A stretch of 5,158 nucleotides of DNA from a bacterium (GTDB taxonomy: Bacteria > Patescibacteria > JAEDAM01 > Absconditabacterales > Absconditicoccaceae), in the NCBI GenBank assembly GCA_030528665.1, contig JAUMYK010000004.1, positions 42,566-47,723 on the forward strand, given 5' to 3'. The notes below the pieces were generated by a model. That model was not told where the DNA came from. It saw nothing but the letters and a program-made list of their open reading frames with translations, and ran no database searches. Below, one piece after another: positions 1 to 5,140 of the stretch. The first letter of the stretch is position 1, and every line of letters begins with the position of its first letter. A program made the translations under genes and the position numbers.

Positions 1-144
1 TGGATTGATTCCAATATTGAGATTTTTGATATCAGAGCGTATCCATTGCTGATACGAAGGATGCGATAGTAGCAAAATACAAAAGCAAACTGCAAGGATA
101 GAGAGGACTTTTCGGATAAGATGTAGTATTTTTTGAACTACCAT
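1..144 (-). CDS. N-terminal part of an unidentified membrane-anchored or exported protein (runs off the window)
   Basis: Reading leftwards from the ATG at 144-142, the frame is open for 48 codons to the window edge. It begins MVVQKILHLIRKVLSIL, followed by a hydrophobic stretch (AVCFCILLL, residues 18-26) and then a polar region (SHPSYQQWIRSDIKN). The basic residues (K5, R11, K12) before the hydrophobic core give the layout of a signal peptide or N-terminal membrane anchor. The cysteines at residues 20 and 22 lie inside the core and do not form a clear lipobox. The single glycine is GGA and there is no in-frame TGA. The frame stays open further upstream if TGA is sense, but ATG 144 is the first normal start. 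A GAGGAG lies about 25 bases upstream, too far to serve this ATG. It follows the nucleotidyltransferase gene on the same strand after 104 bases. I do not recognise the family, because most of the protein is outside the window. Confidence 0.5.
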   Translation of the reverse strand, partial: MVVQKILHLIRKVLSILAVCFCILLLSHPSYQQWIRSDIKNLNIGINP

Positions 145-248: not shown

Positions 249-665
249 TTATCTCCTCTTTGTTTCCTTTCGTTGCTCAAGGAGGGTGATATCTTGGAAA
301 TGTTTGGGTCTCGCAAGAAAGGTTTTGAAAACGATGAGATCATCATAGCTCATACAAGGATAAGCTGCAATCATTTCTGCACGCTTGAGCACTCAGCTTT
401 CCTCACCACGAAATCCTGGAAGATCTTTAAAAATTTCTAGCTTGTGGTCTGGAAATACAAGAACAGGATCAGCATTATTGGTCTTTTGTAATGCAGAGGG
501 AAAACGCTGTGTCAGATGCTGAAAAAGCTGTTCAGAGACTAGCACATCCGTATCCTCACTTGGTCTAATTCTTCTCAATGCTAGACATTGTCCTCCGATC
601 AGACACCGCTCCCCTCTAGGCAACTCAAGCGTTTTGACAAAAAGATCACAATTCTGACTTACCAT
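249..665 (-). CDS. Small nucleotidyltransferase-fold protein, AbiEii/MNT-like, with one UGA=Gly codon
   Basis: The protein is 138 residues when TGA is read as glycine. Residues 22-43 hold the fold's signature: LIGGQCLAL (G24, G25) followed by RPSEDTDVLV, with D38 and D40 as the DxD metal-binding pair. A third acidic residue (E77 in HKLEIF) sits where these families keep one. The in-frame TGA at 395-393 is residue 91. Reading through it gives a C-terminal part ending DDLIVFKTFLARPK..QDI (about residues 108-125), the usual '(D)LI.FK..A.R.KD..DI' ending of these proteins, then a TAA. Under the standard code the gene would stop at residue 90 and lose that ending. Its ATG lies 9 bases after the stop of the S66 peptidase, so the two are probably one transcript. 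Family members include AbiEii-type toxins and stand-alone nucleotidyltransferases of unknown target. No AbiEi-type antitoxin partner is visible, so a toxin role is not supported here. Confidence 0.8.
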
Positions 666-674
666 AATTCATCT

Positions 675-1757
675 TTATAACTGAAATAAAGGCTCCTCAA
701 AATAAATTTTTTGTTGAGGATGCTGATAGCGTATCAGAGCTCCATAGGGAAGAATACAGCGAGGATAGGAATGTCCAAAATTCAGATTATAGAGGATCGG
801 CAATTTTGAGTCAGCTACTACCTTGCACAAGCATTGTTTATACTCTTGATAATAACACTGATTTTGTGGCTTTCCAACAATAATCGCATTGATTTGATCA
901 AATATCCCTCTGGATTTAAATAGCTGAAGCATCTTTTGATACTGAGCAGGTGGCGTCAATTCTTCTGAGGTTTCAATAAAGAGCACCTTCCCTTTTCGCT
1001 CCTCAAGACTTGGGAAAATTGTGTATTTTTCAAAAATCTGTTTTTGCTCAAGAAACCTCCCTCCTATCAGCATTTCATAGAGCGACTCTATACATCCTCC
1101 AAGTAACCTCCCCGAAAACTCCTCTGCTCCCTGTATAAGCTCAAATCCATACTGCTCAGGATGCTTGATTCTAGGGATATTGAGTTGACTCTCAGAAAAA
1201 TCAGTTCTTTCCTCATATCGGATAGGACTTGAGGAAATGTAGGTCTCTCCATGACCAAAGAGGAGATCAATTGCAGCTCTTGTATAGGGGAGCATTTCCT
1301 TATCCAACTCTGCAAAATCAGTCAAAAATGCTGGTCCATAGAAGGTTTGCAGTCCCAATTTGTAGAGCATAAGATGATGATTGGTAGTATCAGAAAAGCC
1401 TATGAATATCTTAGGATGCTGTTTGACCAAATGTTTAAATTCCTCATCCTCCATCAGATAAGGCAGGAGTCTAAATCCATCAATTCCACCAATAGCACAG
1501 ATGATTCCTCTTATTTCAGGATCTTTAAATGCTTGCTTGAGATCTGCTGCTCTTTTTTCAGGATGCTGCTCTAAATCTTGTATTCCATTGAGTGCATTTG
1601 ACATCGGAATCAATTCTAGACCAAACTCTTTGGCTCTTTGGATTCCAAGTTTGAGTTGATGTGAGCAAAAGGATTCTCCCAAAATTCCTTTGGAAAGCGA
1701 TACGAGAGCAACTTTGTCCCCCTGTTTGAGTGGTGGTGGTTTGAGCAGATGAGACAT
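675..1757 (-). CDS. S66-family LD-carboxypeptidase (MccF/LdcA-like serine peptidase)
   Basis: This 360-residue protein has the full S66 architecture. The N-terminal domain opens with GDKVALVSLS and contains AIGGIDGFRLLPYL (residues 88-101). The nucleophile elbow GFSDTTNHH places the catalytic serine at S122. The C-terminal domain supplies E262 in FIETSEE and H329 in NFGHSYPR, completing a Ser-Glu-His triad. Family members either cleave the L-Lys/DAP-D-Ala bond of murein tetrapeptides during peptidoglycan recycling or, in the MccF branch, hydrolyse microcin C-type peptide-nucleotide antibiotics to give self-immunity. The sequence does not settle which applies, though the FSDTTNHH and IETSEE context fits the MccF-like branch. 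No signal peptide is visible, so a cytoplasmic site is likely. All 27 glycines are GGN codons. An AGGAGA directly abuts the ATG, closer than normal for a ribosome-binding site, so the true start could lie a few codons downstream. The nucleotidyltransferase gene follows 9 bases after its TAA. Confidence 0.9.
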   Translation of the reverse strand: MSHLLKPPPLKQGDKVALVSLSKGILGESFCSHQLKLGIQRAKEFGLELIPMSNALNGIQDLEQHPEKRAADLKQAFKDPEIRGIICAIGGIDGFRLLPYLMEDEEFKHLVKQHPKIFIGFSDTTNHHLMLYKLGLQTFYGPAFLTDFAELDKEMLPYTRAAIDLLFGHGETYISSSPIRYEERTDFSESQLNIPRIKHPEQYGFELIQGAEEFSGRLLGGCIESLYEMLIGGRFLEQKQIFEKYTIFPSLEERKGKVLFIETSEELTPPAQYQKMLQLFKSRGIFDQINAIIVGKPQNQCYYQEYKQCLCKVVADSKLPILYNLNFGHSYPRCILPYGALIRYQHPQQKIYFEEPLFQL

Positions 1758-1936: not shown

Positions 1937-3091
1937 ATGCCTATTTTAATAACAACTTACACTCCGGTCAAACAACAGATACACACGCCTATTTCTAATG
2001 TTAATTTCAACACAGAGGGTATCAAATACATGTGATCCAAAAAGGAAATATTGCCATATATACGAAACATGATCAAAGATCTCAAAATTTGTACTGTCTT
2101 GGATTGATGTGCTTGAACTACAAGAGTATGACAATTTTTTAATAATAACAAGTACACAGTTTGTTCTAATGATTTGAACATTTGGTCTGAAAGTTTTTGA
2201 AAAACTTTTTTATTAAATAAAACAGAAAATAAAAAAACATATCAAGACAAAATAGATTATCTCAATTCATTAAAGGGCTATAATGGATATTATACGGAAA
2301 CTTATTGAGGAATAGATAATAATGGTCTATCAATTCAAAATGACTGAAAAAAAAGATTATGGCAAATTCATAATACAAAAAAATTAGATGCTATTAGAGA
2401 TGAAATAGAAAAAATTGCAGAATCTGATTTAGAAAAGCAAACTCTTCTGACAAGTTTAATATTGGCTTTAGATAAAGTAGATAATTCCTTATGACATTTT
2501 TCTTCATATTTAAAAAAATGGTCTCCAAGAAGTTATAATGAAATACAATTGAAGCTCCCTAATTTTTGTGAGATGATGCCAGAAAATAAAGTTTTAACAT
2601 GAGATGTTTTTAGCATTATAAAAACTCCTTTTGATCTTGCTTATTTCGATCCTCCGTATTGATCAAATAATGATAAGATGCCATCATCAAGAGTGAGATA
2701 TTGACAATATTATCATATACGAGAAACAATTATCAAACACGATAAACCTCAAACAATATGAGCTATTAATAAAAGATCTGATGCTACTGTTGATAAAACA
2801 TATTCAATATTTGAAGACTATACAAAAAGAGGTGATTTTTTTATACCAGAGTTGGCAATTTTTAATTTAATTGAACAAACAAATTCAAAATATATCATTT
2901 TATCTTATAATACTAATTGACGCGCAGAAATAAAAAAAATTATCGATTTTTTACAACAAAATCGTTTTCGTTATACATTAAAAACAATAGGATATAAAAA
3001 GAATGTTATGGCTAATATGACTTGGACATGAGATTGGGATAATTTAAGAGCAAGAGAAAATTATGAGATTCTTTTACTTATTTATAAATAA
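1937..3091 (+). CDS. Class-alpha (D12/FokI-like) adenine-specific DNA methyltransferase, readable only with UGA=Gly
   Basis: The 384-residue protein has the alpha-class motif order: motif X KYMGSKKEILPYI (residues 30-42), motif I VLDGCAGTTRVG (54-65, S-adenosylmethionine binding), a long central region of about 170 residues expected to hold target recognition, then motif IV FDPPYGS (DPPY at 238-241, catalytic). RYGQYYHIRETI follows soon after, resembling the YYHxWETI block of FokI-like adenine methylases. The inferred role is N6-adenine methylation that protects host DNA from the adjacent nuclease. Fourteen in-frame TGAs occur, including motif glycines 33, 57, 60, 65 and 242; only seven glycines use GGN. 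Tryptophan is normal TGG, so TGA is not Trp here. The gene ends TAA. ATG 1937 was chosen as the first ATG before motif X, giving a 29-residue lead; no Shine-Dalgarno is visible. A later ATG (residue 32) would break motif X. The recognition sequence cannot be read from the sequence. Confidence 0.93.
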
Positions 3092-3093
3092 TA

Positions 3094-3957
3094 ATGAATA
3101 GCAAACATATTCAAAGGATTCTTTATCTTTATTTGCAACAAACATTTAAACAAATAGAAGATAATCATAAAGTTAAAATTTCTGATATTATTTGATATAT
3201 TACGACTCGCCCTTTTAATATGAAAGGACAAGAATTTCAGGAACTACTTGCATATCCTCTTCAAAAAGAAATAGATTGAAATGCCTCTAACATCTGAGAT
3301 TTATGTATAAAAATAGAATCACCAGCAGATAAGAAAAAAACAGATTTGTTTTTGAATATTGATGATGAAAGGTATAATTTTAGTATTAAAAATTATACAA
3401 CAACTAGATTTCAAATATCAACAATGGCTAATCAATTAGCAAAATATGAATCTCGATTTTCTGATTATTCGATAAATTCTGTTGTTTCTTTAACAGAAGA
3501 ACAACAAGGAGAAATTATTTCTGATATTCAAGAGGATATAGCAAATGATATTACGATATTTGCACTTACTCACAAAAAATCAAGTCAAATAGATATTTAT
3601 TTATTGTCTCTAAAAGAAGATTTCTTAAATAATGTTAACGAAATGAAAGCAGAATATTCTAATAGAGAAAAAACACCACACCGAAGAATTAGATTTTTTT
3701 ATGAAGGTATGGAAAAATATCTCTTTAGCTTGGATTTATGAAAAAATGCTTTAAATAGATGAATTTGGGGGGAAAATTGGAAAGATTTGATAAATCAAGA
3801 TAGTATCAGACAAAAGTTTTTTCACTCACTGCTTGTTGTTCCATTAAAAGATTTAACTCCTTTTTTAAATATAGATCAAAATGCAAAAAATGAGGCGATC
3901 ATGAAACTAATTGAGGAGAGTTTATATGGTCCAAATACCCTAAACTCAGAACTTTAA
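3094..3957 (+). CDS. Probable type II restriction endonuclease partner, candidate PD-(D/E)XK fold, with UGA=Gly codons
   Basis: The 287-residue protein begins 2 bases after the methyltransferase stop, on the same strand. I do not recognise its exact family. A candidate PD-(D/E)XK core is visible: helix acidic residues E47/E50 (GQEFQELLAYP), then SPADKKKTDLFLN with D84, then a strand and FSIKNY with S97-I98-K99. This D...(S)xK layout is common in type II enzymes that have lost the canonical acidic residue. The rest is mixed helix and strand, with a charged middle (about residues 128-200) and no membrane segment. Five in-frame TGAs (residues 34, 62, 68, 216, 223) are read as Gly, alongside five GGN glycines, and the gene ends TAA. 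The tight spacing suggests translational coupling, with the methylase made first, and no Shine-Dalgarno is visible. Standard-code calling would yield only a 131-residue middle fragment (3346-3741). The nuclease role is inferred from position and the D...SIK motif; another restriction-linked DNA-binding protein is possible. Confidence 0.72.
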
Positions 3958-4136
3958 TAGTCCTTATTGCAACTTCTTTTTTATCCTTAGAGAATCTTTT
4001 GATCCCAAGACTTAGTAATTCAAAATTAGATACTGACCTTGAACCAACATATATTCTACCTGTTTAAAATAAAAAACAAAAATTAGTTTTCCACTGAGTC
4101 TTGAACATCAATATTTTTTAAATTTTTTTGCTTTTT
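3958..4136. other. Spacer between the restriction cassette and yaaA, with a long-range inverted repeat
   Basis: This is a 179-base AT-rich spacer. CAAGACTTAGT (4006-4016) and ACTGAGTCTTG (4093-4103) form an 11-base inverted repeat with one mismatch (a possible G-U pair in RNA), separated by 76 bases. It could be a loose transcript-end structure or a scar of the event that placed the cassette here. No convincing intrinsic terminator (GC stem plus T-run) was found. Both strands contain short open frames here (plus strand to the TAA at 4065-4067, and its antisense), but neither has a convincing start. Confidence 0.3.
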
Positions 4137-4832
4137 ATGTCACAACTTCTCTTTCTCATCCCTCCCTCCGAGGGAAAAGCTCGTGGAGGGCTAGCTGGAA
4201 ATCAGCATATAAGCTTTGCTCTTGAGCGTCCAAGTGAGATCGCCTGCAATGCCAGCGAAAAAGACCTTAAATGTAGTGGAAAAAGATATGCAGAAGCCAT
4301 TGCTCTCAATCGCTCTCTTGATCATACTCCTGTCCTCCCTGCCATTGAGAGATATAGTGGTGTGATGTACCAAGCAATTGGCTATGCTCGTCTCCAGGAG
4401 GAAGAAAAGCGTTTTTTTGATGAGCATTTTTTGATTATGTCTGGAATGTATGGGCTTCTCCGCCCTCAGGATCAGATTGCCAATTACAAGTTGCCGATTG
4501 CGAGCAAAGGACTCTATGCCTTTTGGGGAGAGAAAATTATCAAGCAATTGACTGCGTTCCAAGCATACACGATTGTTTCCCTCCTCCCTGATGAGTATCT
4601 CAAGCTCATCACTGGCAGATCACTACAAAAGGCTCGAGCAGGATTTGAAGGTCAACTCATACAGCTCAAGTTTTTGGATGAGCAAGGGAAAAGGCTCACA
4701 CACCATTCCAAACCTATCAAAGGGCAATGGATCAGGGCAATCACTCAGCTTACACTAAGCAGTCAGAAGGATATTCAGCGTTTGCTCCAGTTGCCTGGTT
4801 ATCATATCGAAGCGATTCCGCTTTTGCCCTAG
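4137..4832 (+). CDS. yaaA: YaaA/UPF0246 (DUF328) peroxide-stress family protein
   Basis: The 231-residue protein matches the YaaA family along its length. It opens MSQLLFLIPPSEGKA, the family's PPSEGK block (P10-K14). It then has RYSGVMYQAIGY (72-83), IMSGMYGLLRPQDQIANYKLPI (two blocks within 100-121), a KPIKGQWIR segment near 192-200 where the family has its basic block, and a closing GYHIEAI (221-227). E. coli YaaA limits free iron and DNA damage during hydrogen peroxide stress and binds DNA; the family's biochemical activity is less clear. ATG 4137 is preferred over the in-frame TTG at 4128 because it starts right at the conserved N-terminus. There is no Shine-Dalgarno, only a T-rich leader. 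All 17 glycines are GGN, with no in-frame TGA, and the stop is TAG. Codon and base use match the left-hand genes rather than the restriction cassette. A SemiSWEET gene follows after 23 bases. Confidence 0.92.
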   Translation: MSQLLFLIPPSEGKARGGLAGNQHISFALERPSEIACNASEKDLKCSGKRYAEAIALNRSLDHTPVLPAIERYSGVMYQAIGYARLQEEEKRFFDEHFLIMSGMYGLLRPQDQIANYKLPIASKGLYAFWGEKIIKQLTAFQAYTIVSLLPDEYLKLITGRSLQKARAGFEGQLIQLKFLDEQGKRLTHHSKPIKGQWIRAITQLTLSSQKDIQRLLQLPGYHIEAIPLLP

Positions 4833-4855
4833 CTTTATTTTGATAGAAAAAAAGA

Positions 4856-5140
4856 ATGAAAAGTCTGATTTTTGAGACGATAGGATTGATTGCCGGGATG
4901 TGTATTGCGATTCCTGCGATCCCGCAAATCCGAAATACCCGAAAAACACACAAAGTCGATGGACTCTCTCCGATGATGTTTTGGCTTTTAGGGATTGGGA
5001 ATGCTTGCTATTTTTTGTATGGGTTTTATCTTGGATCGCTCTCAATGATGGTGTTTAATAGCATCAGTGTAGTATGTTCAGTAACGATGCTGATTTTGAT
5101 CGCTAAATATCGTAAAAAAGAGGTAAGAGTTGAGAATTAA
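4856..5140 (+). CDS. SemiSWEET / PQ-loop family small sugar transporter
   Basis: The 94-residue protein has three predicted membrane helices, at about residues 5-25, 38-58 and 62-84. This is the three-helix unit of bacterial SemiSWEETs, which work as homodimers to pass sugars across the membrane by facilitated diffusion. The PQ-loop signature lies at the end of helix 1 (AIPAIPQIRNTRKTHK, P23-Q24), followed by the usual polar loop KVDGLSPMMFW and an asparagine-containing helix 2 (GIGNACYFLYG). The C-terminus is short and basic. A purine-rich AAAAAAAGA directly precedes the ATG and may serve as a weak ribosome-binding site. The 23-base gap from yaaA suggests co-transcription. Seven glycines are all GGN and the stop is TAA. 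The substrate cannot be assigned. In a reduced-genome CPR bacterium a sugar-uptake role is plausible but inferred. Confidence 0.9.
   Translation: MKSLIFETIGLIAGMCIAIPAIPQIRNTRKTHKVDGLSPMMFWLLGIGNACYFLYGFYLGSLSMMVFNSISVVCSVTMLILIAKYRKKEVRVEN

Follow-up and report, generated by a model that had tools for sequence, protein, structure and literature searches.

A probable restriction-modification pair in a doubly altered genetic code, with a putative unannotated nuclease, in a probable Absconditabacteria chromosome

Type II restriction-modification (R-M) systems built on D12-class adenine methylases have adjacent methylase (M) and nuclease (R) genes. The same arrangement, with a D12 methylase, is found in the pair described here, carried by a 5,158-nucleotide (nt) stretch of contig JAUMYK010000004.1 (positions 42,566 to 47,723, forward strand; hereafter 'the window'). 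The pair differs from these systems in that its R belongs to no library family and in that it is written in a code where UGA stands for Gly and CGA for Trp. R-M systems are already known in the phylum: passages of PMC8080830 describe them in Vampirococcus lugosii, an Absconditabacteria member from the same UGA=Gly group as the window, and discuss recoding as a transfer barrier in both directions; CGA=Trp does not come up in them. Sections of PMC12455944 present a type I R-M genomic island in another patescibacterium. What is new here is the double recoding, the unannotated, putative nuclease family and, possibly, a lineage found only in recoded bacteria. In the open literature, subscription papers not being covered, we recognised no paper on this pair or on R-M genes with CGA as Trp.

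The explanation that we favour, and hold with good confidence, is that of a Type II R-M pair in an Absconditabacteria (SR1) chromosome with a doubly altered code, a pair that came from a recoded relative richer in AT and TGA, or from that relative's mobile DNA, and not from a standard-code bacterium. An earlier note, made from the sequence alone, had proposed that two complete genes appear when TGA is read as sense, and its coordinates and frames proved exact. M and R lie on the same strand, 2 nt apart, and are full-length only with TGA as sense; neither frame contains a single TAA or TAG before its final stop (Table 1). In a first-order Markov control (2000 sequences per gene), open frames were obtained in 0/2000 cases for M and 0/2000 for R, with means of 21.3 TAA/TAG codons in M-length frames and 15.9 in R-length frames, which rules out a chance origin of the two open frames. 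All six accepted genes of the window end at TAA or TAG, as the note had it. In the standard code, the M and R frames terminate at codons 33 and 34, and translation with table 11 leaves only fragments (counting those from 40 amino acids (aa) upwards, a single 53-aa piece in the M frame and two, of 131 and 56 aa, in the R frame). The note expected standard-code pipelines to truncate the nuclease and to miss the methylase entirely; the protein database, however, holds the window's M as P0003, a 353-aa reading with TGA translated as Trp, which makes it a mistranslated entry and not a missing one.

Table 1. Coordinates of the R-M pair and of the flanking genes in the window
Feature	Position	Strand	Remarks
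M, D12-class DNA adenine methyltransferase	1937..3091	+	384 aa; 14 TGA (Gly); 2 CGA (codons 43, 262)
R, putative restriction nuclease	3094..3957	+	287 aa; 5 TGA; 2 CGA; E47, E50, D84, S97-x-K99
CGA codon 262 of M	2720..2722	+	column is Trp in 112/113 relatives
Flanking LD-carboxypeptidase (S66)	675..1757	-	codons 180 and 254 are CGA in Trp columns; no TGG, no TGA; evidence on host code
Flanking small gene, no family assigned	249..665	-	in frame: one TGA (codon 91), one CGG, one CGA
Flanking YaaA	4137..4832	+	start in open reading frame (ORF) listing is TTG 4128; no internal TGA; one CGA, uninformative
Flanking SemiSWEET/PQ-loop protein	4856..5140	+	two CGA, no TGA

The meaning of TGA was read from an alignment of M with the best 120 of 6413 database homologues (among 7997 scored) and three genome loci, 123 rows in all. 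In ten of these rows (P0003 to P0012, P0003 being the window's own protein), between 8 and 19 of the columns where the query has Gly hold Trp instead; these rows were taken as UGA-recoded genes whose TGA codons had been mistranslated as Trp by the source, and were set aside. Since the 113 remaining reference rows were chosen for having no Trp at query Gly columns, it follows from this choice alone that the TGA columns lack Trp, and the argument is carried by the Gly percentages and by a scoring of 21 possible meanings; most reference rows are assumed to use the standard code. Gly occupies 88-100% of the rows in 10 of the 14 TGA columns, and 113/113 in five of these, while the other four columns are variable, with mainly Ser, Lys, Ala and Asn. 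The glycines of methylase motifs to which the earlier note had drawn attention are indeed written TGA, at codons 33 (Y-M-TGA-S-K), 57 and 60 (L-D-TGA-C-A-TGA) and 242 (D-P-P-Y-TGA-S). For R, codons 216 and 223 correspond to Gly in all five standard-code relatives with a residue at that position, and codons 34, 62 and 68 have no Gly match in relatives. Positions where homologues mostly carry something other than Gly, which the note had named as the evidence to look for against its reading, amount to 4/14 in M and 3/5 in R, all of them variable. Gly was the best of the 21 meanings in both genes, ahead by 31 bits in M, where Trp scored lowest; Trp, Cys/selenocysteine and every other residue were rejected by these scores. 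TGG still encodes Trp, as had been claimed, its five columns in M being 92-100% Trp in the 113 relatives.

The note had identified the code as NCBI table 25. The UGA=Gly part of this claim stands, but table 25 leaves CGA as Arg and is incomplete, because CGA corresponds to Trp in M and in the neighbouring carboxypeptidase; judged from aligned columns, the code goes beyond table 25. Besides codon 262 of M, two CGA codons of the carboxypeptidase fall at columns that are Trp in 119/120 and 116/120 relatives (best 120 of 6511), and Trp was the best meaning of CGA in both genes, the carboxypeptidase profile comprising 117 of the 120 relatives (P0132, a 98% relative on a contig of 8178 bases, P0133 and P0142 left out). 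Codon 43 of M lies in a variable column, mainly Leu. Reading CGA as Trp moves the SemiSWEET gene from 41.9 to 46.5 bits against PQ-loop and from 33.4 to 32.3 bits against MtN3, and the D12 score of M from 60.6 to 60.0 bits, codon 262 being outside the matched stretch. At six conserved Trp columns of M, nine recoded relatives show Arg in 25/54 cells, against 0/678 in the 113 other rows; at eight conserved Arg columns, Arg fills 54/72 cells of the recoded relatives. Arg at Trp columns in these rows is the pattern expected from CGA/CGG misread as Arg. Both reassignments, TGA as Gly and CGA as Trp, are visible at conserved columns, as the Absconditabacteria code requires; NCBI designates this code as table 37.

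Could the code nevertheless be plain table 25, with the CGA codons as true Arg substitutions? The strongly Trp-conserved columns with CGA number only three (codon 262 of M and both of the carboxypeptidase), and the CGA codons of R and YaaA are uninformative on meaning. However, 97-99% of relatives have Trp at each of the three, Arg is present in 113/113 rows at the columns of six AGA codons of M, the excess of Arg at Trp columns is confined to the recoded rows, and passages of PMC8629427 infer, for Absconditabacteria (SR1), a code with UGA=Gly in which CGA and CGG both stand for Trp. We therefore consider plain table 25 highly improbable.

M is a D12-class DNA adenine methyltransferase by both its profile match and its motif: it reaches 60.6 bits against a cut-off of 22 with Pfam PF02086 (MethyltransfD12; E-value 2.5e-16), and D238, P239, P240 and Y241 are unchanged across 22 rows. 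It also matches the PADLOC model MTase_II (PDLC03342, 5.1e-105). No solved structure was matched in a sequence search, and 85 matches were found among plasmid records, every one below 60% identity.

R (P0002) has no family match in Pfam, NCBIfam, PHROGs or PADLOC. A sequence search against solved structures returned one row, with an E-value of 0.82, and none with alignment A1. E50, D84 and K99 are nevertheless conserved in the family, and the predicted structure of an R homologue (pLDDT 85) aligns best with restriction nucleases, namely EcoRV, HincII, NaeI, SwaI and 3ndh (presumably ThaI); these matches are at the level of fold, with no sequence similarity found to a solved chain. The window's R differs from all five in having Ser for the second acidic residue. 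This middle position of PD-(D/E)xK holds Asp in P0130, P0131, L001 and L002 (L numbers denote loci), Glu in L003 (4498-4932), and Ser in P0002 and in P0123 to P0129. On the strength of the conserved residues and the modelled fold, we read R as a putative member of an unannotated nuclease family with a PD-(D/E)xK-like site.

Two other readings of R must be weighed here. Firstly, M may be real and R not a nuclease, but an accessory of the methylase or some other DNA-binding protein whose fold resembles that of nucleases. The lack of a family match and the Ser substitution point that way, as does the L003 locus, where a separate, known restriction endonuclease (REase) accompanies M and the R-family gene; but the three conserved residues, the Asp or Glu found at the middle position in 5/6 standard-code copies, the fold matches of the homologue's model, and the lack of any other REase-like ORF next to M in L001 and L002 in the searches run make this quite improbable. 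Secondly, the cassette may be decaying or inactive, for example a methylase beside a dead nuclease, given Ser97 where Asp or Glu is expected. Yet both frames are complete, and Ser97 is common to all six recoded relatives and to P0129, therefore a group feature and not a local loss; we think decay very improbable. The reading as a methylase with its likely cognate nuclease, already proposed in the earlier note, is supported.

The R-family gene adjoins the same M family in all three genome loci found (3/3), before M in L001 and L002 and after it in L003. In L003, the R-family frame stops at residue 145, the rest of its C-terminal part being matched on another contig. The additional gene before M in this locus is REase_II (PADLOC PDLC03568, 2.5e-113), so that positions 2205-4932 carry one methylase and two different putative nucleases. 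PDLC03568 resembles the R family in its partnership with the same M family and in the blocks K-x-Y ... Q-x-S-T and N-A-L-x-R-G-x-W (hhalign E-value 3.6e-4, probability 37%). It differs in that the L003 REase is only 16% identical to P0002, which does not match the profile at E<=1, and both kinds occur together in L003. Among the matches listed, three recoded M/R protein pairs (P0007/P0126, P0008/P0125 and P0011/P0127) agree in source and in the length of the contig, which suggests that these pairs are adjacent in their genomes. RF2 is present in the genome of L003 (G001), the sole genome checked for this release factor, which is uninformative on the host of the window.

How general is this association? 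Viral contigs, scanned with A3, yielded 11 M loci (L010 to L020) among 20 stretches, and none of the 11 carries an R-family gene, which weighs against the pair being a general one. Two of the 11 have an upstream relative of the L003 REase (L015, 6.3e-83; L016, weak, 4.3e-5). Single-protein scans gave one locus for M, on the contig of L015, and none for the carboxypeptidase or the L003 REase. For the R family, 0/16 viral stretches were confirmed with A1 and 0/3 with P0253, while genome contigs gave 3/111 confirmed with A1, none recoded; the patterns of these scans had GGN for Gly and TGG for Trp, so that TGA-written copies could escape. There was no match to R in phage and plasmid records, and among 395 genomes of the phylum of G003 the only match was G003 itself, so the family is rare there.

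The pair looks imported. Gly is written TGA in 19/31 cases in the pair against 1/57 in the four flanking genes (Fisher p 2.6e-10), and the G+C content (GC) is 26-27% in the pair against 39-46% in the flanking genes, with a step at the intergenic edges. At these edges we found only short AT-rich repeat matches and no direct repeat bracketing both, and no phage gene was seen in the window. A tree of M was computed from 51 rows (the window, 7/9 recoded relatives, 37/110 other database rows, taken as every third, 3 genome loci and 3/11 viral loci), with Trp masked in the window's sequence and both Trp and Arg masked in the recoded ones; the program warned of a deviant letter make-up in several recoded rows. 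The recoded methylases form one clade of 8 rows (99/94; 98% of 200 bootstrap trees), with 0/43 other rows inside. The simplest reading of tree and composition would be a single entry into recoded bacteria followed by exchange among them, the window copy deriving from a relative or phage with a higher content of AT and TGA. A phage vehicle is possible because dense in-frame TGA is reported, in passages of PMC10746230, from prophages of these bacteria.

Alternatively, the pair may be native and its neighbours the atypical genes, their high GC and GGN glycines either retained or brought in by acquisition, with no import of a cassette. The carboxypeptidase does resemble those of Leptotrichia (63%) and may stem from an older transfer, TGA is absent from three of the four flanking genes, and in recoded M relatives 6 to 11 of 13 conserved Gly columns hold Trp, which probably stands for TGA, so that TGA-rich genes would be normal for this family. 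However, the four flanking genes are functionally different and all have a GC of 39-46%, with together one TGA in 57 Gly codons, and the carboxypeptidase writes Trp as CGA and is therefore adapted to a recoded host. We regard a native pair as unlikely, though deserving real weight.

If the pair was acquired, how far is it bound to its code? M would methylate adenine within a short DNA site, and R, with its putative EcoRV-like fold, would cleave that site wherever it lacks the methyl group, so that phage or imported DNA would be destroyed; both are probably made from one transcript, because of the 2-nt gap. A standard-code cell should obtain neither protection nor cutting, because the frames stop within the first 34 codons, and where UGA is Gly but CGA is Arg, the near-invariant Trp 262 of M would be replaced by Arg. 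The pair may be a working defence system, functional solely in UGA=Gly hosts, as the earlier note had suggested. A stronger version, a code-locked mobile defence lineage that entered UGA-recoded bacteria once and later spread only among them, gaining CGA=Trp codons, so that standard-code cells could not read its frames and even UGA=Gly relatives with CGA=Arg would insert the wrong residue at a near-invariant Trp, we put forward tentatively, as a possibility somewhat short of even.

The flanking genes deserve some further remarks. Together, the four contain seven CGA and CGG codons for three TGG; if every one of the seven encodes Trp, CGA would be far advanced in taking over this residue. Among the named sources in the matches listed, SR1 bacterium HOT-345 has the closest carboxypeptidase (67%), followed by Leptotrichia, possibly reflecting an older transfer from oral fusobacteria. 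The HOT-345 protein (P0133) has Arg in its public version where 116/120 relatives have Trp; in public SR1 proteins, CGA/CGG codons may have been mistranslated. The small gene at 249-665 (-) is nucleotidyltransferase-like by eye, has no Pfam model at E<=1 and holds the window's single CGG, at codon 20. At window positions 1-144 (-), a frame starts with a hydrophobic, signal-peptide-like N-terminus and continues beyond the window. No transfer RNA and no Rfam family was found in the window.

Does an altered genetic code wall off gene exchange? The question, still open, is taken up in passages of PMC8080830, and a putative defence cassette that is rich in TGA and has CGA as a Trp codon, and in which the methylase has, among the matches listed, only recoded genes as its nearest relatives, offers a concrete, testable case, with signs, possibly, of an R-M lineage confined to recoded bacteria. 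It also means that, in public proteins from these bacteria, conserved glycines appear wrongly as Trp and conserved tryptophans wrongly as Arg. Finally, the pair points to a nuclease family absent from the libraries used here.
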